In this document: piece by piece, positions 1 to 39,955 of the stretch | How the letters are laid out: each line of letters opens with the position of its first letter | Numbering within the stretch: position 1 is the stretch's first letter | Origin: a virus | Strand: one strand, 5' to 3' | Virus record (IMG/VR): IMGVR_UViG_3300046740_000049 | Span: 1 to 39,955 of that record | DNA: 39,955 nucleotides | The notes under the pieces: generated by a model | Told to the model about the DNA's origin: nothing | Databases searched by the model: none | Seen by the model: the letters and a program-made list of their open reading frames with translations, nothing else | Translations under genes and position numbers: made by a program

Positions 1-207
1 GACTGTGTCGCTCGTGTCGAAGTGTCACTGACCGGGGATGCCAGAGTGATCGGTCACACCCACGACGAGATCATCCTGGAGTGCGATGAATCGATTGCCG
101 GGAAGGCAGCAGAGGTACTGAAGCAGCAGATGAAAAGGGTGCCAGAATGGTTGCCCGGTTTCCCTCTCGACTGCAGCATCACGACAGCCGACAGGTACGG
201 GAAATGA
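1..207 (+). CDS. Family A DNA polymerase, C-terminal end (continuation of the gene at 38000)
   Basis: Position 1 is the first base of codon 612 of the polymerase, and the frame is open to the TGA at 205-207. It carries catalytic motif C (THDEII, with the HDE codons starting at base 61), which binds the metal-coordinating Asp of the palm. Bases 1-123 repeat 39833-39955 with a single difference (C28 against T39860) that leaves leucine unchanged. The gene is cut only by the choice of contig ends and is not itself truncated. A hairpin follows directly after the stop. Confidence 0.92.
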   Translation, partial: DCVARVEVSLTGDARVIGHTHDEIILECDESIAGKAAEVLKQQMKRVPEWLPGFPLDCSITTADRYGK

Positions 208-289: not shown

Positions 290-2647
290 ATGCCTAGCCA
301 ACAGCAAGAGAATCCTAGCACAGACCAACATGAATTCCTCTCCACACTAGCATCAGGGCTTCCAGCCGGAAGCTACTTCCACCTCGCCAGGGCGATCCCG
401 AAGACCGACGGCAACACGGCCTGGGAGAACGACACATGGCGCGAGCAGCACCTGGACGGGCATTGGTACTTCTGCACCGGAGCCAGCAGCGACAGCAAGC
501 ACCGCCGAGCCGAGGACATGGTCGCCGTCCTCGCCATCGTCCTGGACGACGTCAAGCCTGACGGCACTGGCAAGGGCGGCGGCGTGGTCGAGGTCGAGCC
601 GACGTGGAAGTTGGAGACGAGCCCAGGCAACGAGCAGTGGGGCTATATGCTGAAGGTAGCGGAGCCCGACATCGGGAAGGCCGACGCCCTGATGGTGTCC
701 CTCATCGAGGCCGGGCTGCAGGACCCAGGCGTCAACCGCTCCTGCCGCGTCTGGCGCGTACCCGGCAGCATCAACCAGAAGCCCCAGCACGCGGGCTTTA
801 AAGCCGTACTTCGCGACGTCGAGTGGGGCCGGACGTTCACCCTCAACAGCCTAGCCAAGGCGTTCAAGGTCCGCCCTGGCGCGCCCATCGAGCCCCGCGT
901 ACCCAGCGGCGAGCGGCCTGGGGCCGGCAAGCCGGACCCGTTCCTGGACTGGATGGCCGAGCAGGGCATGCTGACCGGCGAGCGCAGCAGCGAGTGGTTG
1001 GTGGTCGCATGCCCCTTCTCCGACGAGCATACGGACCCCAGGGCTACTGCGAAGTACCTGCCGACGTTCGCCAGCGAGGACGGCAGGCCACGCATCGAGT
1101 GCTGGCACACGCACGGCCGCCTTGACAAGGCGGCCTTTGCCAAGCGGTTCTTCGCCTGGGCCGCCGAGCAGGGTGCGCCGCCACCCTCCGGCCCCGACCC
1201 GGAGAAGCTGCGCGAGATGTTCGCCGCCATCCGCACCGGACCCTACGAGCCGCAGGCAAAGCGCGGCGAGCCAGTGCCGCTGCAGCCTGGAGCCACATAC
1301 GACGAGATCACGCTAGACGATGCCTTTGGCAAGATTCCTATCAGTGCCCTGCACGACATCAAGTACACCAAGGGATCGAAAGCTGTGCCCCCGGCCCCCG
1401 CCGCCAAGCAGGACACCAGCAACGCCAACGTACTGGCCTGTATGCGGCACCTGGGCGTCGAGTCCCGGCTCAACCTGATGAACGGCGAAACCGCATTCCT
1501 TCTACCCGAGCGCATCGACCCTGCCGGCTTTGGCTCGATGTCTGCCTACCAGATCGACAGCATGGTTCACGGCGCGGTGCGCGATGCCCTCCACCGTGTC
1601 GGGCTCAACAAGGCAGAGATTGACGACAACATGACCGGGATTGCCGAACGCAACTGCTGGCACCCTGCCAAGGACTGGATCGAGTCCAAACCCTGGGACG
1701 GCCAGGACCGCCTGGAGCATCTCCTGCGGTCGGTCGAGACGCCAACCCCCGACCTCTTCAAGGCGTATTTTCGTCGCTGGGCATTACAAACCGTGGAAGC
1801 AGCCTGCGGCTGGGCCGCCTCCCCACCTCGGCGCGAGCAGGAGAAGGCACTGTGCCTTGTCCTGGCCGGCAACCAGGGCATCGGCAAGACCCGGTGGTTG
1901 ATGTCGCTAGCACCTGAAGGGTTCACTGTGCGCGGCAAGCACCTCAACTTGGACGGCAGCGCATCGGCGGCGCGTGACTCGATCCACGAGGCACTGCAGG
2001 GCTGGATCGTGGAGCTTGGCGAGCTTGACACCACCTTCGGCAAGTCCGCCAACGGCAGCCTGAAGGCGTTCCTGTCCAACACCACCGACCAGTACCGGCT
2101 GCCCTACGCTGAAGCCTGGGGACGACGGCCGCGCTGCACGAGCTTCTGCGCCAGCGTCAACGACGCCCAGTTCCTGAAGGACGACACCGGCAGTCGCCGC
2201 TACATAGTGATCTGGACCGATCACTGCGACGTCGATCACGCGACGGACATGCAGCAGTTGTGGGCTCAGATGCATACCTACTGGAAGGGTGGCGAACAAA
2301 CCTACCTGACGAAGGCCGAGGAGCGGATGCAGGCCGAGGGCAATGCACGGCATCAGGCCGAGGACCCTGTCGCCGATGCCGCCGCCAACTTCGCCGAGAA
2401 GCGTGCCGAGCGCAGCGACCGTCACCCCTTCGAGTGCAGCGTGAAGGCGACCGACGTGCTGCAGATGCTGAACCTGCGCATGGACCTGGGCGGGACGTCG
2501 AAGCGGGTAGGGGCAGGACTGCGGTTGGTGCTGGGCAAGCCTCAGCAGTTGGACAAGCGTGGCGGCCACAAGCTGGGCTGGCGGCTCTGGCTGGACAAGG
2601 ACGAGGTCAAGGTCTACGGCAAGATGCTGCGCCCGAGCAAGGCGTGA
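290..2647 (+). CDS. Primase-helicase: N-terminal PrimPol-like domain plus VapE (D5-type) ATPase
   Basis: 785 residues. The N-terminal part (about 30-190) resembles RepB/AEP-type primases: paired acidic residues D86-D87 (VLDD), a SPGN turn near 110, and a basic strand ending in PGSIN near 160. A middle segment has a spaced Cys/His set (ACPFSDEH, ECWHTH) that may bind zinc. The C-terminal half is a VapE/virulence-associated E type SF3-like helicase: Walker A GNQGIGKT at 527-534, Walker B-like WIVELGELD at 572-580, and a VNDAQFLKDDTGSRR sensor/arginine segment. It probably primes and unwinds at the phage origin. The start has AGGAAA seven bases upstream. An in-frame CTTTAAAG lies at codons 169-172. 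The stop overlaps the next gene's GTG. Confidence 0.88.
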   Translation: MPSQQQENPSTDQHEFLSTLASGLPAGSYFHLARAIPKTDGNTAWENDTWREQHLDGHWYFCTGASSDSKHRRAEDMVAVLAIVLDDVKPDGTGKGGGVVEVEPTWKLETSPGNEQWGYMLKVAEPDIGKADALMVSLIEAGLQDPGVNRSCRVWRVPGSINQKPQHAGFKAVLRDVEWGRTFTLNSLAKAFKVRPGAPIEPRVPSGERPGAGKPDPFLDWMAEQGMLTGERSSEWLVVACPFSDEHTDPRATAKYLPTFASEDGRPRIECWHTHGRLDKAAFAKRFFAWAAEQGAPPPSGPDPEKLREMFAAIRTGPYEPQAKRGEPVPLQPGATYDEITLDDAFGKIPISALHDIKYTKGSKAVPPAPAAKQDTSNANVLACMRHLGVESRLNLMNGETAFLLPERIDPAGFGSMSAYQIDSMVHGAVRDALHRVGLNKAEIDDNMTGIAERNCWHPAKDWIESKPWDGQDRLEHLLRSVETPTPDLFKAYFRRWALQTVEAACGWAASPPRREQEKALCLVLAGNQGIGKTRWLMSLAPEGFTVRGKHLNLDGSASAARDSIHEALQGWIVELGELDTTFGKSANGSLKAFLSNTTDQYRLPYAEAWGRRPRCTSFCASVNDAQFLKDDTGSRRYIVIWTDHCDVDHATDMQQLWAQMHTYWKGGEQTYLTKAEERMQAEGNARHQAEDPVADAAANFAEKRAERSDRHPFECSVKATDVLQMLNLRMDLGGTSKRVGAGLRLVLGKPQQLDKRGGHKLGWRLWLDKDEVKVYGKMLRPSKA
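796..803. promoter_or_regulatory. CTTTAAAG palindrome 1
   Basis: Inside the primase-helicase gene as Gly-Phe-Lys-Ala (GGC TTT AAA GCC), extended to a 12-bp palindrome. It uses TTT and AAA where neighbouring codons are mostly TTC and AAG. Confidence 0.6.
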
Positions 2648-3102
2648 GCGAGTCGTCCCTGGAGAAGTCGGCCCGGCTGCACGCCAGGAAGCGGGGCGTG
2701 CGGTCGGTCAAGCTCCAGGGTGGCATCGTCGGTGAGCCCGACCGGCTGTTCCTGCTGCCGGGCCGCCGCTGCTGGTTTGTCGAGTTCAAGGCGAAGGACG
2801 GCCGGCTGTCGCCCAGGCAGAAGGTGGTCGGTGCGGAGTACGACGCCATCGGTCACCCGGTCGCTGTCGTGCGCAGCATGAAGCTGTTCAGGGCCATGCT
2901 TGACTTGGAGCTTCAGGCTGCTGTAGACTGGAGCCTCACTCCTGAAAGCAGACATGCAATACAACCCGCTCCAGTTCCAGCAGAAAGCCATCTCCCTGGT
3001 CTGCCAAAAGTCCGGCAGCGCGCTGCTGCTCGACCCAGGGATGGGCAAGACCGCCATCACCCTGGCGGCCGCCTGCGTCCTGCAGCACCACGGCCTGATT
3101 GA
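2644..3102 (+). CDS. VRR-NUC domain nuclease
   Basis: 152 residues from a GTG that overlaps the previous stop (GTGA). The first ~95 residues are a VRR-NUC (PD-(D/E)XK-type) nuclease: a GGIVGEPDR loop, then CWFVEFKAKDGRLSPRQ with the catalytic E-x-K pair, then a strand ending VAVVRS. Phage proteins of this family are often near 90-110 residues, so the last ~50 residues, which overlap the SNF2 gene by 149 bp and are rich in Arg and Pro, look like read-through of a frame without stops. VRR-NUC next to SNF2 helicase and VapE is a known phage replication arrangement, probably for branched-DNA processing. Confidence 0.82.
   Translation: MSESSLEKSARLHARKRGVRSVKLQGGIVGEPDRLFLLPGRRCWFVEFKAKDGRLSPRQKVVGAEYDAIGHPVAVVRSMKLFRAMLDLELQAAVDWSLTPESRHAIQPAPVPAESHLPGLPKVRQRAAARPRDGQDRHHPGGRLRPAAPRPD
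2900..2929 (+). promoter_or_regulatory. Putative promoter for SNF2 helicase gene
   Basis: TTGACT (2900-2905), an 18-bp spacer and TAGACT (2924-2929) end 24 bases before the SNF2 ATG, inside the VRR-NUC gene. The same -35/18 bp/-10 layout recurs at 31488, 32998, 34644 and 35284. Confidence 0.55.
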
Positions 3103-4366
3103 GTCCACGCTGGTCATCGTGCCGCTTCGGCCGATGTACCTCACATGGCCGGCCGAGGTCGCCAAGTGGGACCAGTTCAAGCACCTCAAGGTGTCGATCA
3201 TCCACGGCACTCCGCAGCAGCGGGTGGCCGCCATGAAGGTCAAGGCCGACGTCTACCTGATCAACCCCGAGAACGTGGCGTGGCTGGCAGCGCAGGCCGC
3301 CCCCCACGGCCTCACCCTGGGCTGCTTCGGCACCCCGCCCAAGCTGCTGGTGGTCGATGAGTCCACCCGGTTCAAGAACGCCCAGGCACTGCGCTTCAAG
3401 GCTCTGAAGGCACTGCTTCCCGCCTTCCCCCGCCGGGTGATCCTGACCGGCACCCCGGCTCCCCAGGGCATCGAGGACCTGTTCGCCCAGTTCCAGATCG
3501 TGGACGACGGCGAACGCCTGGGCCGCTACATCACGCACTTCCGCAAGCTGTTCATGTTCTCCACGCCGCTGCGCATCGGGGGCGGCCGCACCATCGATGA
3601 GTGGCATGTCCGCCCTGGCGCAGAGAAGATGGTTGCCGGAGCCATCGCCGACGTCGCCATGCGTCTGCAGGCCGAGGACTACCTGCTGATGCCCGACATC
3701 AGCTACAACACTATCCGCGTCGAGCTTCCGGCTGCCGCCCGCACCGCCTACAAGGCGATGGGAGACGACCTCGTTGCCACCGTCGGCGACCAGAAGCTGA
3801 CGGCCGTCACCGCCGCTGCAGCGGTGATGAAGCTGCGCCAGATCACCAACGGCTGGGCGTACCACGAGACGGGCTCGACGCATATCCACAACGCCAAGAT
3901 CGACGCCCTGTGCGAACTGGTCGAGGAGCAGCAAGGCACGCCGCTGCTGGTGGCGGTCGCGTTCGTCCACGAGGTCGAGGCGATCCGCATCGCCCTGGCC
4001 GACGTCCTGCCCAAGGGCACGATGATCCCGTACCTGGGCGGCGGCGTCAGCCGGGCTCACGCCGACCGGATCGTGGAGATCTGGAACCAGGGCGGCTACC
4101 CGGTCGTCCTGGCGCACCCGACGTCAGTGGCCCACGGCCTGAACCTCCAGTCTGGCGGCCACGCCATCTGCTGGTTTGGGTTGACCTGGAACCTGGAGGA
4201 GCATATCCAGTTCAACGCCCGCGTGTACCGTCAGGGTCAAGACAAGCCTGTGGTGATACACTATCTCGCCGCCAAGGACACCGTGGACGAGGACATCGCG
4301 AAGGCTCTGTCTACCAAGTCCGACGTGCAATCCGCTATCCTCAACCGCCTGAAAGGTTCCAAGTGA
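2954..4366 (+). CDS. SNF2-family DEAD-like helicase
   Basis: 470 residues. An ATP-dependent DNA translocase/helicase of the small phage SNF2 type. Motif I is DPGMGKT (27-33), motif II DEST (135-138), motif III TGTPAP (165-170), and the C-terminal RecA lobe carries Q419-x3-R423-x2-R426-QGQ, the SNF2 motif VI. It lacks the accessory chromatin domains of the long family members. The start overlaps the tail of the VRR-NUC frame and has its own upstream promoter-like sequence; a clear Shine-Dalgarno is missing (only GAAAG). Its stop overlaps the next GTG. It probably acts at forks or branched intermediates with the neighbouring nuclease. Confidence 0.9.
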   Translation: MQYNPLQFQQKAISLVCQKSGSALLLDPGMGKTAITLAAACVLQHHGLIESTLVIVPLRPMYLTWPAEVAKWDQFKHLKVSIIHGTPQQRVAAMKVKADVYLINPENVAWLAAQAAPHGLTLGCFGTPPKLLVVDESTRFKNAQALRFKALKALLPAFPRRVILTGTPAPQGIEDLFAQFQIVDDGERLGRYITHFRKLFMFSTPLRIGGGRTIDEWHVRPGAEKMVAGAIADVAMRLQAEDYLLMPDISYNTIRVELPAAARTAYKAMGDDLVATVGDQKLTAVTAAAAVMKLRQITNGWAYHETGSTHIHNAKIDALCELVEEQQGTPLLVAVAFVHEVEAIRIALADVLPKGTMIPYLGGGVSRAHADRIVEIWNQGGYPVVLAHPTSVAHGLNLQSGGHAICWFGLTWNLEEHIQFNARVYRQGQDKPVVIHYLAAKDTVDEDIAKALSTKSDVQSAILNRLKGSK

Positions 4367-4704
4367 AGCCAGTTGCAACCAAGAAGAAGGCCGCCAAGCG
4401 CAAGCCGGACGGGGTTCGCCCCGAGGGCTCGCGGCTCGTCGTGATCGAACTGCCGAAGGCGATGCCCGGCGGCAAGACAACGCCCGGCCATCCGCTCCTG
4501 TGGCTGATGGACTTCAAGATGAAGGACCGGACCAAGTCCGATCTCGCCCGCGAGATGGGCATCCGGCCGCAGTCCCTGTACAAGTGGGAGCGGTACTGCA
4601 AGACCGACCGCAACTTCCCGCTGCCGGGCTTGCGCGCCGCGCAGATCGCCAAGTTCTTCAGGGTCAAGCCCGCCCTGTTGCGGCCTGACCTCTTCGGGGC
4701 TTGA
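4363..4704 (+). CDS. HTH DNA-binding protein (Cro/YdaS-like)
   Basis: 113 residues from GTG at 4363, coupled to the SNF2 stop by a GTGA overlap, with AAAGG eight bases upstream. A basic N-terminus (KKKAAKRK) precedes a helix-turn-helix with the pattern KSDLAREMGIRPQSLYKWER and a following RAAQIAKFFRVKPALLRPDLF segment, as in Cro/YdaS-type phage repressors. It could be a regulator of this genome and is one candidate for binding the CTTTAAAG palindromes. Target and sign of regulation cannot be read from the sequence. Confidence 0.7.
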   Translation: MKPVATKKKAAKRKPDGVRPEGSRLVVIELPKAMPGGKTTPGHPLLWLMDFKMKDRTKSDLAREMGIRPQSLYKWERYCKTDRNFPLPGLRAAQIAKFFRVKPALLRPDLFGA

Positions 4705-4705
4705 C

Positions 4706-4915
4706 ATGCCTGTAGCTTCGTACACCATCACGTTCGACTTTGACGAGATGAACCTTGTCTTCCAGGCACTGGGCAAGCTGCCGGCTGAACGCAGCTTCAT
4801 GCTGATCCAGCGTCTGGGTGCCGAGGTCGCCGAAGCCAACAAGGCCGCCGCTATCATTCCGCCAGCCCCACCGAAGGCAGAAGTGCCCGACGTGGATTCG
4901 GCCTCCCTGCAGTAA
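4706..4915 (+). CDS. Small hypothetical protein
   Basis: 69 residues, starting one base after the HTH stop. It has a short beta-rich start (SYTITFDFDE), an amphipathic helix around 20-48 and a Pro/Ala-rich C-terminal tail. It is probably translated with the HTH gene. I do not recognise the family; the even charge and lack of membrane segments suggest a small cytoplasmic protein. Confidence 0.65.
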   Translation: MPVASYTITFDFDEMNLVFQALGKLPAERSFMLIQRLGAEVAEANKAAAIIPPAPPKAEVPDVDSASLQ

Positions 4916-4944: not shown

Positions 4945-4964
4945 TAATTCAGGAGAACCACGCC

Positions 4965-5786
4965 ATGAAGAAACTTCTCTTTGCCGCCCTCGGGGCGGCC
5001 GCGCTGCTCGCGCTAGGGTCTGCCCAGGCCGCCAGCACCTGCTCGCTGCTGTCCAAGGACGGCACCTGCACGTTCGTCACCGACACCACGGGCGGGCAGG
5101 CACTCTTCACCAACCCGACCAACCTGGAGAACATCGGGTCCGGTGAGATCAACCCGTTCCTGGGGCTGCAGAACAACGGCACCGAGTTTGGCGTCAACAG
5201 CGACCTTGCCAACGTGAACCTGCTGCCGCTGAACGACAAGCGGGACAACCTCGGCACGTTCACCAACACGTTCACCCGCAACGACCTTGCGGTGATCGAC
5301 ATCAACGGGACGTCGTTCTACCAGTTCCTGCTCGATGCCCACGAGCCGGGCGGCACGCCGCTGGTGTCCATCGATACGCTGCGGATCTGGGACGCGAAGT
5401 CGGCGGCCCAGCAGTTGCTGTCCAACAGCAACGTGACCTCGCTGGCGGACGTGGACGGTCTGTTCTCCTCGCTCATCTACTCGATGGGTCCGGGCAACGA
5501 ACTGATCATGGACGGCACCCTGTTCCCTGGCAACGGCCTGGGCTATGACCTGTCGGTCTTCATCCCGACCAGTGCGTTCGCTGGGGTGGCAATGGACAGC
5601 CGGCTGATCTTCGGCACCGGCATGGGCGGCGTCCTGGATGCGGAAGCCGGCGACGGCTTCGAGGAGTGGGGCTACCGTGCGGCTGTAACGGCTGCAGTGC
5701 CTGAGCCCGGCACCTACGCCATGATGCTGGCCGGCATCGCAGTCGTCGGCGGCATCGTCCGCCGCCGCCGCCAGACGCCCGAGTAA
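4965..5786 (+). CDS. PEP-CTERM sorting-domain surface protein
   Basis: 273 residues with AGGAGA eight bases before the ATG. A Sec signal peptide covers residues 1-22 (KK start, hydrophobic core, AQA cleavage site). The mature part (23-244) is beta-rich with many Asn, Gly, Thr and Asp and two cysteines just after the signal. The C-terminus is a full PEP-CTERM tripartite signal: VPEPGTYAMM from 245, a hydrophobic segment to 265, then RRRR (266-269). In known systems a host exosortase recognises this tail and sends the protein to the cell surface or exopolysaccharide matrix. The phage carries no exosortase, so it would rely on the host. It is probably an accessory cargo (moron) gene that alters the infected cell's surface; the function is not known. 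Confidence 0.88.
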   Translation: MKKLLFAALGAAALLALGSAQAASTCSLLSKDGTCTFVTDTTGGQALFTNPTNLENIGSGEINPFLGLQNNGTEFGVNSDLANVNLLPLNDKRDNLGTFTNTFTRNDLAVIDINGTSFYQFLLDAHEPGGTPLVSIDTLRIWDAKSAAQQLLSNSNVTSLADVDGLFSSLIYSMGPGNELIMDGTLFPGNGLGYDLSVFIPTSAFAGVAMDSRLIFGTGMGGVLDAEAGDGFEEWGYRAAVTAAVPEPGTYAMMLAGIAVVGGIVRRRRQTPE

Positions 5787-5806: not shown

Positions 5807-5829
5807 AGGCCGCCCTCGGGCGGCCTTTT
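5807..5829 (+). terminator. Strong intrinsic terminator ending the plus-strand block
   Basis: An 8-bp GC-rich stem (AGGCCGCC at 5807-5814, complement 5819-5826) with a CTCG loop, followed by TTTT. It lies 21 bases after the PEP-CTERM stop, between convergent blocks. Confidence 0.85.
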
Positions 5830-6071: not shown

Positions 6072-8180
6072 TTAGCCGATCCGCTGCCACAGGGCGGTGT
6101 TGGTGCCGGTGTTGCTTGCGCCGAGGAGCCGCCAGACCCCGGAGGTGATGACTTGGTTGGACCCGCTGGCGATGGGGGCGGCGGTGAGGGTGATCGAGCC
6201 AGTGAGTGCCTGCGCCTGCCCTGCGGTGAACGCCGTGAATCCGGCCCCGGCCGCTACAGCATGGACGATGGCACCGACGGGCGGGCTGCCGCCGCTGACG
6301 GCCCCGCCGGGATCGGTCGCCACGATGTACTGGTTGCCGCCGCTAGTCACCGAGGCGACGCCCGTGCTGCTGACCCTGAACCGCTCGGCGTAGGACGCTG
6401 CAGCCGGCCGCGTGGCCGACGAGGCGGCGAACCGGAAGGTGAGATCCTGGCCGGCGATGTCGCTGTGGTGGATCATCCGCCAACTGGACAGGGTGGTCGC
6501 GCTCGTGTGCCCGTTAAGCTCGATCTTGCCGCCGCCGTTGCCGTCCCCCAGCCCCACGTAGACGTTGGCGTAGGCGGCCGACCCGTAGGGTCCGAATACC
6601 GACATCTCCTTCAGCCCCAGGCCGTCGGCGTACGAGCCCACGGTGAGCCAGTCCGGCGGGTTGACGTTGCCAAGCCCCATGTAGTTGCCGTCGGTCCTGG
6701 GCAGCAGCGTCAGGATCGGCCCGGCGTTGGCAGAGATGTCGAAGCGAACCGTCGTCCCGGTCTTGTCGCCACCGACGTACCAACCCTGGAGGCCGGTCCT
6801 GATGAAGCCCATCGCCGGCACCTTGCCGGCATCGAGAACCCCGAGCTTGATCAAGTCGGCGGGGTTGACCGCGCCGCCGATGCCGACCTCGCCCGTGCGG
6901 TTGATCCGCATGCGCTCGGCCGAGGCGTTGTCCGCCGCCGTGAAGAATGTGAGGATGGAGCCGTAGTCTGTGTCGCCTGAGACGCGGACGTAATCGACCG
7001 ACATCCCGGCAGAGGCCACCGGCGAGCCGAACGAGTTAAAGGCGTAAGCCTGCACCGACCGCGAACTCGGGGTGTTGCCGGCCCCAGGGTACGAACTGTT
7101 GATGGTGATGCCGCCATCCCAGACGGTGAACTTATCGACGCCGCCGCCGACGTATGGCGACCCCGGCACGCCGACGACGACCTGTCCATTGCCCTGCACG
7201 ATCATGCGCGGCACAGAGCTTCCGGCAAGCATCTGGATCGGGCCGCCGTCGCCACTGAGGATGACGCCGCCGGCTGGGTCCTCCGGCGCGGTCACGCTGC
7301 CGCCGCCCGTGCCTGCGCTGTTGAGCAGCCGCACCCCGACCCCGCTGCCTGCGGGTCCGGCACCGCCCTGGGTGCGGATCGTGCCGACCACGTCGAGGTG
7401 GATGCCCGTGGTGCCCGGAGTGGTGCCGATGCCCAGGCCGTTGGTGGTCCAGCGGCCCGCCTCGCCGCCGGCCGGCATCATGCGGATGACCTTGGCGGCG
7501 TCGCTCGTCACCAGAGCCAGACCCTGGCTCGCGTTGCTGTACAGCATGCCCGTGGCCGACAGCGCAGGCAGCCCCGTGTAGCCCGAGCCTGTCGCCGCCA
7601 CCAGCATGCGCTGCCCAGTGTTGTTCATGGCGTTGAAGACTGCGGACGAATCCACCCCACCGCTATGGTTGGTGGCGTAGAAGCCTGCCTCGCCATTGAA
7701 CGTCTCATCGACGGTGACGTCATCGAGCGAGGTGATCCCGCCCCCGACCACCAACCCGCCGGCCACGCCGACGTCGCCGTTCAGGGTCACGTCGCCAGTG
7801 ATCCCGACGTTGCCCACGACGTTGATCGGACTGGTGATGCTGTGCCCGGCGGCGATGCTGAGATCACTGTAGAGCGTGTACTGGCCGCCGGACCACGAGG
7901 CGACCTTGGCCCCCATGACGGCGACCGCCATCACGCCTGGAGTCTCCAGGTACACCCCCGTGCCGGTCTCCGACGAGAAGGCGAAGGCGGGCTGCAGGAC
8001 GCTGCCGTTGATCAGCCGGAAGGCGGCTGTCATGCCACCCCGGCCGTTGCGGTCGAGCGAGTCGGTCAGAGCCTGGGCGATGTCGTCCTCGGTCGTGTTC
8101 GCCCAGGCCGCCTGGATGACGGTGTTGGGGACGACCGGCGGCAGCGGGAGGCTGTAGGTGCCGGATACATTACGAGGCAT
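6072..8180 (-). CDS. Tail fibre / receptor-binding-type protein
   Basis: 702 residues. The first ~75 residues match the usual virion-attachment end of podovirus tail fibres: a PPVVPNTVIQAAWANTTEDDIAQALTDS-like opening split over 15-45, followed by a RNGRGGM and AFSSETGTGVYL segment. The rest is rich in Gly, Thr, Ser and Val with regular short strands, as in trimeric beta-helical fibres, including stretches such as VGNVGITGDVTLNGDVGVAG. No intramolecular chaperone domain is evident. Its role would be host surface recognition. Shine-Dalgarno is weak (GAAAG). It lies at the distal end of the virion block, as tail fibres often do. Confidence 0.8.
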   Translation of the reverse strand: MPRNVSGTYSLPLPPVVPNTVIQAAWANTTEDDIAQALTDSLDRNGRGGMTAAFRLINGSVLQPAFAFSSETGTGVYLETPGVMAVAVMGAKVASWSGGQYTLYSDLSIAAGHSITSPINVVGNVGITGDVTLNGDVGVAGGLVVGGGITSLDDVTVDETFNGEAGFYATNHSGGVDSSAVFNAMNNTGQRMLVAATGSGYTGLPALSATGMLYSNASQGLALVTSDAAKVIRMMPAGGEAGRWTTNGLGIGTTPGTTGIHLDVVGTIRTQGGAGPAGSGVGVRLLNSAGTGGGSVTAPEDPAGGVILSGDGGPIQMLAGSSVPRMIVQGNGQVVVGVPGSPYVGGGVDKFTVWDGGITINSSYPGAGNTPSSRSVQAYAFNSFGSPVASAGMSVDYVRVSGDTDYGSILTFFTAADNASAERMRINRTGEVGIGGAVNPADLIKLGVLDAGKVPAMGFIRTGLQGWYVGGDKTGTTVRFDISANAGPILTLLPRTDGNYMGLGNVNPPDWLTVGSYADGLGLKEMSVFGPYGSAAYANVYVGLGDGNGGGKIELNGHTSATTLSSWRMIHHSDIAGQDLTFRFAASSATRPAAASYAERFRVSSTGVASVTSGGNQYIVATDPGGAVSGGSPPVGAIVHAVAAGAGFTAFTAGQAQALTGSITLTAAPIASGSNQVITSGVWRLLGASNTGTNTALWQRIG

Positions 8181-38003: not shown

Positions 38004-39955
38004 AAGCCCGCCGCCTGCACCTGGACTACGAGACCCGCTCCGACTGCGACCTGAAGTCGGCCGGCGCGTACGTCTACGCCCGCCACCCCTCGACCAGGGT
38101 CCTGTGCGCGGCGTACGCCCTGGACCACAGTCCAGTGCGCTACTGGGCGGCGGCCGCCGGCTACCCGATGCCGGCGAGCCTGGAGCGCGCCCTCCAGGAC
38201 CCGGACGTCGAGGTCCACGCCTGGAATGCCCAGTTCGAGCGGCTGATCACCCGGAACGTCGTCGGCATCCCCGTGGATCGCCGCCGCTACCACTGCACGG
38301 CCGCCCTGGCGCGAGCCCGAGGGCTGCCCGGCAAGCTGGAGACCGCGCTCGACTTCCTGGACATGGCACCCGATCTCGCGGTGAAGCGCAAGGGCACCGC
38401 GCTGATGATGAAGTGGTGCAAGCCGCTGCCGACCGGCGGCTACGCCAGCGACCCGGACGAGTACGGAGACCTGATCTCCTATTGCATCGGCGACGTGAAG
38501 AGCGAGCGCGACATCGCCGCCCGGCTCTACCCGCTGACGAGGATCGAGCAGGCCGAGTACCTGCTGACCGAGGTCATCAACGACCGTGGGCTGCCCATCG
38601 ACGTGCAGCTTGCGCTGGCGGCGCAGACCTACGGAGACGAGGAGAAGCGCGAGCTTGCCGCCTACCTGGGGTGGATGACCGGCGGCACGATCACGACGCC
38701 CAACCAGCACGCCCGCATCAAGGAGTGGCTGAAGGCTCGCCTGGGAGACAAGATCTTTAAAGCCTTCTTCGCCAAGGGCGACAAGGAGTCCACCGACAAG
38801 AACGCCAGGGCGGGGTTCCTGGGCTCGGAGTGCGCGAAGGACTGCGACCCCGAGATTGTCGAGTTGATCGAGGTGGTGGACGACGCCGGCAAGTCCAGCG
38901 TGGCGAAGTTCGCCCGCATGGCCGAGCGTGCGTCCGACAACGGCCGGGCCGAGGGCTCCTACATCTGCTACGGGGCAGCGCAGACCAAGCGGTACAGCAG
39001 CCGGGGCGTGCAGGTCCACAACCTCCTGCGCAAGGGTCCGCCGGACCTCCAGGCCGCCATCAGTCAGGTCCTGGCGCACAACGTCCAGGGCAAGGTCATG
39101 CACGTCCTGGCGAGCCTGCTGCGCCCGACCATCAAGGCATCCCCCGGCAAGGTCCTGGTCTGGGGCGACTGGGCCGCTGTCGAGGCTCGCGGCATGCCCT
39201 GGCTGGCCGGCTGCCAGTGGAAGCTGGACATGTACCGGCAGGGCATCGACGTCTACCGGGTGAACGCCGAGACCATCTTCGGCGTGCCGGCGGCCGACGC
39301 CGACGATCTCCAGCGGCAGATCGGCAAGGTGGCCGAGTTGTCCCTGCAATTCGGCGGCGCGAAGGGTGCGCTGAAGTCGATGGCCCGCCAGTACGGGATC
39401 ATCCTGCCCCCTGGCCTGGACGCCGACATCGTCTTCGCCTGGAGGGAGGCCAACAAGTGGGCGGCCAAGTACAGCAACAGCCTGTACCACGACTTCCTGA
39501 TGACGTGCATGGGCGAAGACTCGGGCTTCTACCGGCAGATCATCCCGATGCTGCCCGGCACCGTCAGCGTGGCCTGCGACCTGCCCGGCGGCACCACCCT
39601 GTACTACCACGGTGTCCGGGGTCACGTCGCCATCACCCACCCGACGATCCGCCGCACCGTCATGCTGGAGGTCGGTGCTGGAGACACAGGCTGGGACGGC
39701 GAGAACCTCAACGACTGGGAAACCGAAGTCACGTTCACCAAGACGCTGCCGGCGGGCTTTCGCACCGAGCGGGTATGGCACGGCCTGTTCGCCGAGAACA
39801 CCACGCAAGGGCAGTGCGCCGCCCTGCTGCGCGACTGTGTCGCTCGTGTCGAAGTGTCATTGACCGGGGATGCCAGAGTGATCGGTCACACCCACGACGA
39901 GATCATCCTGGAGTGCGATGAATCGATTGCCGGGAAGGCAGCAGAGGTACTGAAG
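38000..39955 (+). CDS. Family A DNA polymerase with 3'-5' exonuclease (main part; continues at 1-207)
   Basis: Replicative phage DNA polymerase. Joined across the contig ends it is 679 residues: 611 from here up to 39832, then 68 from 1-207. The exonuclease domain shows ExoI D9/E11 (LDYET), ExoII N76/E80 (WNAQFE) and ExoIII Y161/D165. The polymerase domain shows motif A at D390-R397 (GDWAAVEAR), motif B at R439/K443/F451-G452 and motif C HDE at 632-634. There is no 5' nuclease domain, as in other phage PolA proteins. The GTG start at 38000 overlaps the TGA of the preceding small gene by four bases, so translation is probably coupled. A CTTTAAAG site (38755-38762) lies in frame as Ile-Phe-Lys-Ala. 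It belongs to the replication run DUF2800 nuclease, putative SSB, polymerase, primase-helicase. Confidence 0.93.
   Translation, partial: MKARRLHLDYETRSDCDLKSAGAYVYARHPSTRVLCAAYALDHSPVRYWAAAAGYPMPASLERALQDPDVEVHAWNAQFERLITRNVVGIPVDRRRYHCTAALARARGLPGKLETALDFLDMAPDLAVKRKGTALMMKWCKPLPTGGYASDPDEYGDLISYCIGDVKSERDIAARLYPLTRIEQAEYLLTEVINDRGLPIDVQLALAAQTYGDEEKRELAAYLGWMTGGTITTPNQHARIKEWLKARLGDKIFKAFFAKGDKESTDKNARAGFLGSECAKDCDPEIVELIEVVDDAGKSSVAKFARMAERASDNGRAEGSYICYGAAQTKRYSSRGVQVHNLLRKGPPDLQAAISQVLAHNVQGKVMHVLASLLRPTIKASPGKVLVWGDWAAVEARGMPWLAGCQWKLDMYRQGIDVYRVNAETIFGVPAADADDLQRQIGKVAELSLQFGGAKGALKSMARQYGIILPPGLDADIVFAWREANKWAAKYSNSLYHDFLMTCMGEDSGFYRQIIPMLPGTVSVACDLPGGTTLYYHGVRGHVAITHPTIRRTVMLEVGAGDTGWDGENLNDWETEVTFTKTLPAGFRTERVWHGLFAENTTQGQCAALLRDCVARVEVSLTGDARVIGHTHDEIILECDESIAGKAAEVLK
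38755..38762. promoter_or_regulatory. CTTTAAAG palindrome 17
   Basis: Inside the DNA polymerase gene, reading Ile-Phe-Lys-Ala (ATC TTT AAA GCC). Confidence 0.6.
39833..39955. repeat. Terminal direct repeat, right copy (with 1-123)
   Basis: These 123 bases equal 1-123 except T39860 against C28. Both copies are in the same polymerase reading frame. It marks the contig ends as overlapping ends of a circular map. Confidence 0.9.

Follow-up and report, generated by a model that had tools for sequence, protein, structure and literature searches.

A phage-encoded PEP-CTERM protein with an exchangeable ectodomain as a predicted substrate of the host exosortase

A viral genome of 39,955 nucleotides from IMG/VR (record IMGVR_UViG_3300046740_000049, positions 1 to 39,955; this whole stretch is referred to here as the window) encodes at positions 4965..5786 of the plus strand a protein of 273 amino acids, which judging from its sequence is a bona fide PEP-CTERM protein with all features required to enter the exosortase path. 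Together with its counterparts in related phages, it is probably best understood as a Sec-exported substrate of the host exosortase with an interchangeable ectodomain, displayed on the infected cell or in its matrix and plausibly serving to remodel the surface. PEP-CTERM/exosortase substrates of Gram-negative bacteria were reportedly described by Haft et al. in 2006, and PepA of Zoogloea and Aquincola is one of them. For phage-encoded PEP-CTERM proteins, no description was found in the open-access literature, most subscription journals and bioRxiv lying outside the scope of that search.

The open reading frame starts with ATG, has exactly the boundaries given in the preliminary description and is preceded by a ribosome-binding site, AGGAG, at 4951..4955 (+). 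Its N-terminus, MKKLLFAALGAAALLALGSAQA, shows the n-, h- and c-regions expected of a Sec signal peptide, including an AxA site, and the predicted signal peptide (called, as throughout, by eye and hydropathy) covers residues 1-22 up to the AQA site (4965..5030, +). The same basic-hydrophobic-A.A layout recurs among those members of the protein's family, designated family A, that have an intact N-terminus. A lipobox is absent, as the site reads AQA-AST-C and the residue before the cysteine is T in the window protein and T, L, V or F in aligned members, not G, A or S. At the other end, the C-terminus, AVPEPGTYAMMLAGIAVVGGIVRRRRQTPE, comprises the PEP motif, a hydrophobic helix and RRRR, with the profile matches placing this sorting tail at 5694..5771 (+). 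The protein is recognized by PF07589 with 33.7 bits (cut-off 20.7; 38.2 bits and E 8.9e-11 when the whole record was searched) and by TIGR02595 with 26.5 bits (cut-off 16). Since PF07589 gave no match among 14 control genomes in the same search, chance is excluded. The complete signal peptide and full PEP-CTERM tail claimed in the preliminary description are thus borne out, including recognition of the tail by PEP-CTERM profile models. The match to the PEPxxWA-CTERM subtype model NF035944 is marginal (35.2 against a cut-off of 35), the sequence being PEPGTYA and not PEPxxWA, while the FxDxF PEP-CTERM model NF038126 stays below its cut-off (38.1 against 50) and covers the tail only. Within family A, the PEP motif is kept in the phage members except for a 28% relative (L088), which has PEV. 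No PHROGs family was found for the window protein, and no PDB relative was detected by profile search.

A 123-nucleotide repeat with one mismatch occurs at both ends of the window (1..123 and 39833..39955), which points to a near-complete phage genome in which the PEP-CTERM gene is not host flank. Host contamination or misassembly was rejected, because the gene lies inside a genome bounded by a terminal repeat and because many independent contigs contain it as well. Its placement in the phage replication block, as originally proposed, was confirmed: upstream in the operon lie a VapE-like primase/helicase (290..2647, +; PF05272, 141.7 bits; phrog_1313), an SNF2-type DNA helicase (2954..4366, +; phrog_62, 425 bits), an HTH DNA-binding protein kept in most related loci (4363..4704, +; weak HTH matches below the Pfam cut-off) and, directly in front of the PEP-CTERM gene, a small conserved ORF of 69 amino acids (4706..4915, +), which tblastn detects in most loci with a PEP-CTERM gene at this place. 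Behind the gene, an intrinsic terminator with an 8-pair GC-rich stem followed by TTTCGTT (5807..5826, +) closes the rightward replication operon, and a terminator is likewise present downstream in four related loci (L008, L009, L015 and L014). The structural genes are encoded on the opposite strand, so the replication transcript ends with the PEP-CTERM gene, and this operon layout suggests that the gene is expressed early or mid infection. Its convergent neighbor on the late strand (6072..8180, -) codes for a variable fiber-like protein without Pfam or PHROG match. Rfam and tRNA searches were empty.

The genome also contains a dispersed octamer, CTTTAAAG, of which 17 copies are present versus 0.04 expected in shuffles (positions 796, 4931, 5847, 9636, 11244, 12471, 15504, 17548, 21320, 24573, 27323, 29895, 30263, 31112, 34652, 35909 and 38755). 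A C follows two bases later in 15 of the 17 copies, giving an extended motif that keeps a single orientation throughout the genome. TTTAAA occurs in the window exclusively within this octamer, two copies of which bracket the PEP-CTERM gene. Near relatives keep CTTTAAAG, more distant ones have GTTTAAAC in its place, and the element may be either a regulator site scattered over the genome or a replication motif with a fixed orientation.

In related phages, the position behind the SNF2 helicase forms a conserved slot. With the helicase as query, 32 related loci were retrieved from viral contigs, and PEP-CTERM tails (PF07589) were found in 21 of the 31 related records searched, several of which carry two such genes in tandem in the slot. 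With helicases clustered at 95% nucleotide identity, 17 lineages result, and 12 of them possess an exosortase-substrate gene; this count includes L018, whose PEP-CTERM genes lie at the other contig end, as well as L021, in which the slot protein, cut by the contig end, matches the Npun_F0296 type. Wherever the slot was measurable, its gene starts 512-678 nt behind the helicase. The other 5 of the 17 lineages have no recognizable tail in the slot, which counts against the favored interpretation. At least four body families are involved, namely A (that of the window), B, C and the Npun_F0296 type. Family C belongs to the cellular FxDxF family (NF038126, 71.8 and 84.4 bits, cut-off 50), to which the window protein is similar over its tail only, and the L021 protein belongs to the Npun_F0296 family (NF050191, 36.8 bits, cut-off 29), with a body differing from that of the window protein.

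Two further observations were made. Three loci without a PEP-CTERM gene (L028, L030 and L031) have other genes behind the helicase; in L030 and L031, and apparently in L028, the slot is occupied by another protein, putatively exported and about 220 amino acids long (MHKL...), whose L031 copy gave no NCBIfam or Pfam match. Moreover, host PEP-CTERM genes in Aquincola are RpoN-dependent, and sigma54-like -24/-12 sites with a score of 10 or more out of 12 were found in 5 of 27 upstream regions versus 1.5% of random stretches, though post hoc and in loci that are not all independent (upstream of PEP-CTERM genes in L009, L017, L042, L074 and L085). Upstream of the window gene, such a promoter scores at background level only.

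How the bodies differ between phages is most clearly seen in two contigs from different metagenomes, one with a family A body (L015) and one with a family B body (L008). Over the 890 nt that run from the helicase into the first 35 nt of the gene, ending among the signal-peptide codons, the two share 95.7% identity. Beyond this point all similarity is lost and the bodies are unrelated; from the PEP codons through the stop codon, the terminator and beyond, identity returns to 93%. The 69-nt tails of this pair are 97% identical, compared with 37% for the preceding 120 nt. The closest family C tails share 88-93% nucleotide identity with A and B tails, and for the closest cross-family pairs of A, B and C overall, tails are 88-97% identical, while the preceding 120 nt reach 36-42%. 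As several contigs show this pattern between A, B and C, chimeric assembly is unlikely. Hence, signal sequences and sorting tail constitute a retained frame and the ectodomain the exchanged part, which suggests that what has been kept functionally is display on the outside of the cell, by a part whose interaction partner varies. At the sequence level, a fixed tail combined with swapped bodies is the strongest sign in support of a need of the phage for sorting. A body matched to the fiber type was considered as well. In the comparison of the window with L004, however, the fiber-like proteins have kept ends and middles with 16-68% identity in variable blocks, yet the PEP-CTERM proteins are 95% identical, which argues against a body matched to the receptor of one particular fiber and leaves that idea unsupported.

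Beyond the related phages, the families are widespread among viral contigs. Alignment scans gave 31 viral loci for family A, 21 for B and 16 for C, counts that rest on IMG/VR contigs, many of which are fragments. In many family A contigs, up to 20 kb of flanking sequence has no further gene detectably shared with the window, yet phage hallmarks are present, including terminase, major capsid, tape measure, baseplate and replication proteins. Tandem pairs recur in different combinations (B+C, C+B, C+A, or a further family beside A or B). The search of viral sets for PEP-CTERM tails suggested in the preliminary description accordingly returned a wide set: in addition to the related records, PF07589 matched in 18 of 18 further records tested, 16 of them over the cut-off, and a tail-pattern scan matched 22 viral stretches in which several other bodies occur, part of these stretches being perhaps of host origin. 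Among isolated phages (INPHARED), no match was obtained for families A, B and C or for two other tail-bearing proteins, and plasmids gave none for family A or C; terminase and helicase of the window found by tblastn only matches below 60% identity in isolated phages of diverse hosts. Other tail types were also observed. VPDSG-CTERM is a tail type of other exosortase systems, and a 76-kb phage contig (L062:9692-11140) encodes two exported proteins in tandem, of which the first ends in a VPDSG-CTERM-like tail scoring just below the cut-offs (PF18205, 22.7 against 25; TIGR03778, 21.2 against 22). Four viral contigs (L091, L093, L102 and L105) have PEPxxWALMLAG tails on unusual bodies, those of L093 and L105 forming one family.

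The ectodomain of the window protein (5034..5696, +) appears to be maintained by selection. Pairwise dN/dS values within family A are 0.12-0.58 (Nei-Gojobori, rough at high GC), so that by this sequence measure the bodies are under purifying selection overall. In alignment A4, two cysteines, C26 and C35, are shared by the aligned family A members, and in alignment A5 nearly all phage members keep them, with the 28% relative L088 as the clear exception; this pair fits an oxidizing destination. AlphaFold2 predicted a beta-sandwich when run with 24 sequences (pLDDT 69.8, pTM 0.76), as opposed to a pLDDT of 34 with 7 sequences. Searching with this predicted ectodomain, Foldseek found nothing at E 0.001 or better, and the best VIA-align Z of 5.5 lies inside the range of unrelated models. 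The fold matches being non-significant, no function was read from the fold.

No exosortase (PF09721) is encoded in any of 46 phage records (22 + 23 + 1), including that of the window, in agreement with the absence noted in the preliminary description. We infer that the host of the window phage has one. The tail and the family C type are probably common in Burkholderiales and related Pseudomonadota. A scan of cellular genome contigs for family A found only two distant relatives, both in Planctomycetota MAGs (L036 and L037), with identities of 32% and 29% in the scan and of 28-35% over the body. These proteins are encoded in bacterial chromosomes beside a DnaA-like gene and share the conserved DGFEEW segment with family A, but neither the conserved cysteine pair nor the phage setting; the L036 genome contains an exosortase and 20 PEP-CTERM matches.

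For PEP-CTERM proteins of bacteria, Sec export, retention in the inner membrane by the tail, exosortase processing and outward transfer have been proposed, after which they would tie polysaccharide to cells (PMC12188702). By analogy, the phage protein would be made together with the replication genes, early or mid infection, moved across the inner membrane by Sec with removal of the signal peptide, and anchored in this membrane by its tail until the host exosortase acts. The latter would then cut off the tail and transfer the ectodomain outward, onto the outer surface or into the exopolysaccharide matrix. The phage would provide the substrate only and borrow the machinery from its host. Judged from the signals, processing by the host exosortase is very likely, and the mature protein would be located at the surface or in the matrix. 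The likeliest benefit would be a remodeled surface of the infected cell to which fewer further phages adsorb (superinfection exclusion), or else an altered matrix. Superinfection exclusion or surface remodeling is plausible and our first choice, whereas superinfection exclusion taken on its own is a possible but somewhat doubtful benefit. Two rival explanations remain live.

The first of these, although unlikely, is that the phage protein joins the host EPS and holds infected cells in flocs or biofilm, where the progeny meet new hosts. In Aquincola, overexpressed PepA binds polysaccharide to cells, with soluble EPS decreasing, bound EPS increasing and flocs being rescued (PMC9850573), and the predicted fold bears a weak likeness to carbohydrate-binding modules. 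That likeness, however, is found among many unrelated beta-sandwiches and below significance, and the PepA flocculation model NF033554 gave no match to the window protein at E up to 0.1. Somewhat less likely still is a decoy function, in which overproduced substrates occupy the host exosortase and the linked EPS machinery, so that the matrix thins and adsorption of progeny or release from flocs is helped. Host PEP-CTERM genes do matter for flocs (PMC9850573), and a pure decoy would likewise have its tail as the most conserved element with freely swapped bodies. It would, however, have no need for a conserved ectodomain, let alone for two different ones in tandem, while the phage bodies are under purifying selection and keep both cysteines and the predicted fold.

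It is improbable that the gene is a host-derived passenger, acquired and disseminated through illegitimate recombination and of little use to the phage. Membership of family C in a cellular PEP-CTERM family does make capture from hosts likely at the origin, and family A has its remote cellular relatives in Planctomycetota; against mere passage stand the retention of exosortase-substrate genes at one slot in 12 of 17 lineages, the spread across phage lineages, and purifying selection, together with divergent members in which both the N-terminal and the C-terminal signal are intact. A lysis or spanin-like envelope function instead of display can practically be set aside: while the protein would be exported and membrane-tethered before processing, its gene is grouped with replication and not late genes, unrelated bodies are swapped in, unlike in lysis genes, and a structural-block protein of the window already matches an amidase family (phrog_5107).

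Display of exchangeable ectodomains through the host exosortase thus remains the preferred reading. In its signal peptide, PEP motif, hydrophobic helix and basic end, the window protein resembles Gram-negative PEP-CTERM substrates (PF07589, TIGR02595). It differs from them in that no exosortase is encoded alongside, the gene forms part of a replication operon and bodies are swapped between near-identical phages. Phage surface proteins for superinfection exclusion are known in Llp of T5 and Cor of lambdoid phages, which depend on lipoprotein sorting or direct outer-membrane insertion. The window protein would act in a similar way, as a small exported phage protein altering the surface of the infected cell, but would use an exosortase tail and no lipobox. 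Whether many phages of several unrelated lineages use the host exosortase pathway to show interchangeable ectodomains, with bodies recombined between fixed signal peptide and tail as a strategy of surface control, is to our judgment an evenly balanced question.

PEP-CTERM proteins contribute to the cohesion of flocs and biofilms formed by environmental bacteria, and how these proteins are sorted is poorly understood. If the proposed reading is true, use of the exosortase route by phages would be evidence that this pathway is worth controlling during infection, and the phage proteins would offer natural minimal substrates for exosortase studies. PEP-CTERM genes would then mark phages of exosortase-bearing hosts and point to a testable way for phages to affect the stability of flocs and biofilms. 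Surface control by phages would hence rely on a bacterial protein-sorting system with which they had not been associated before.
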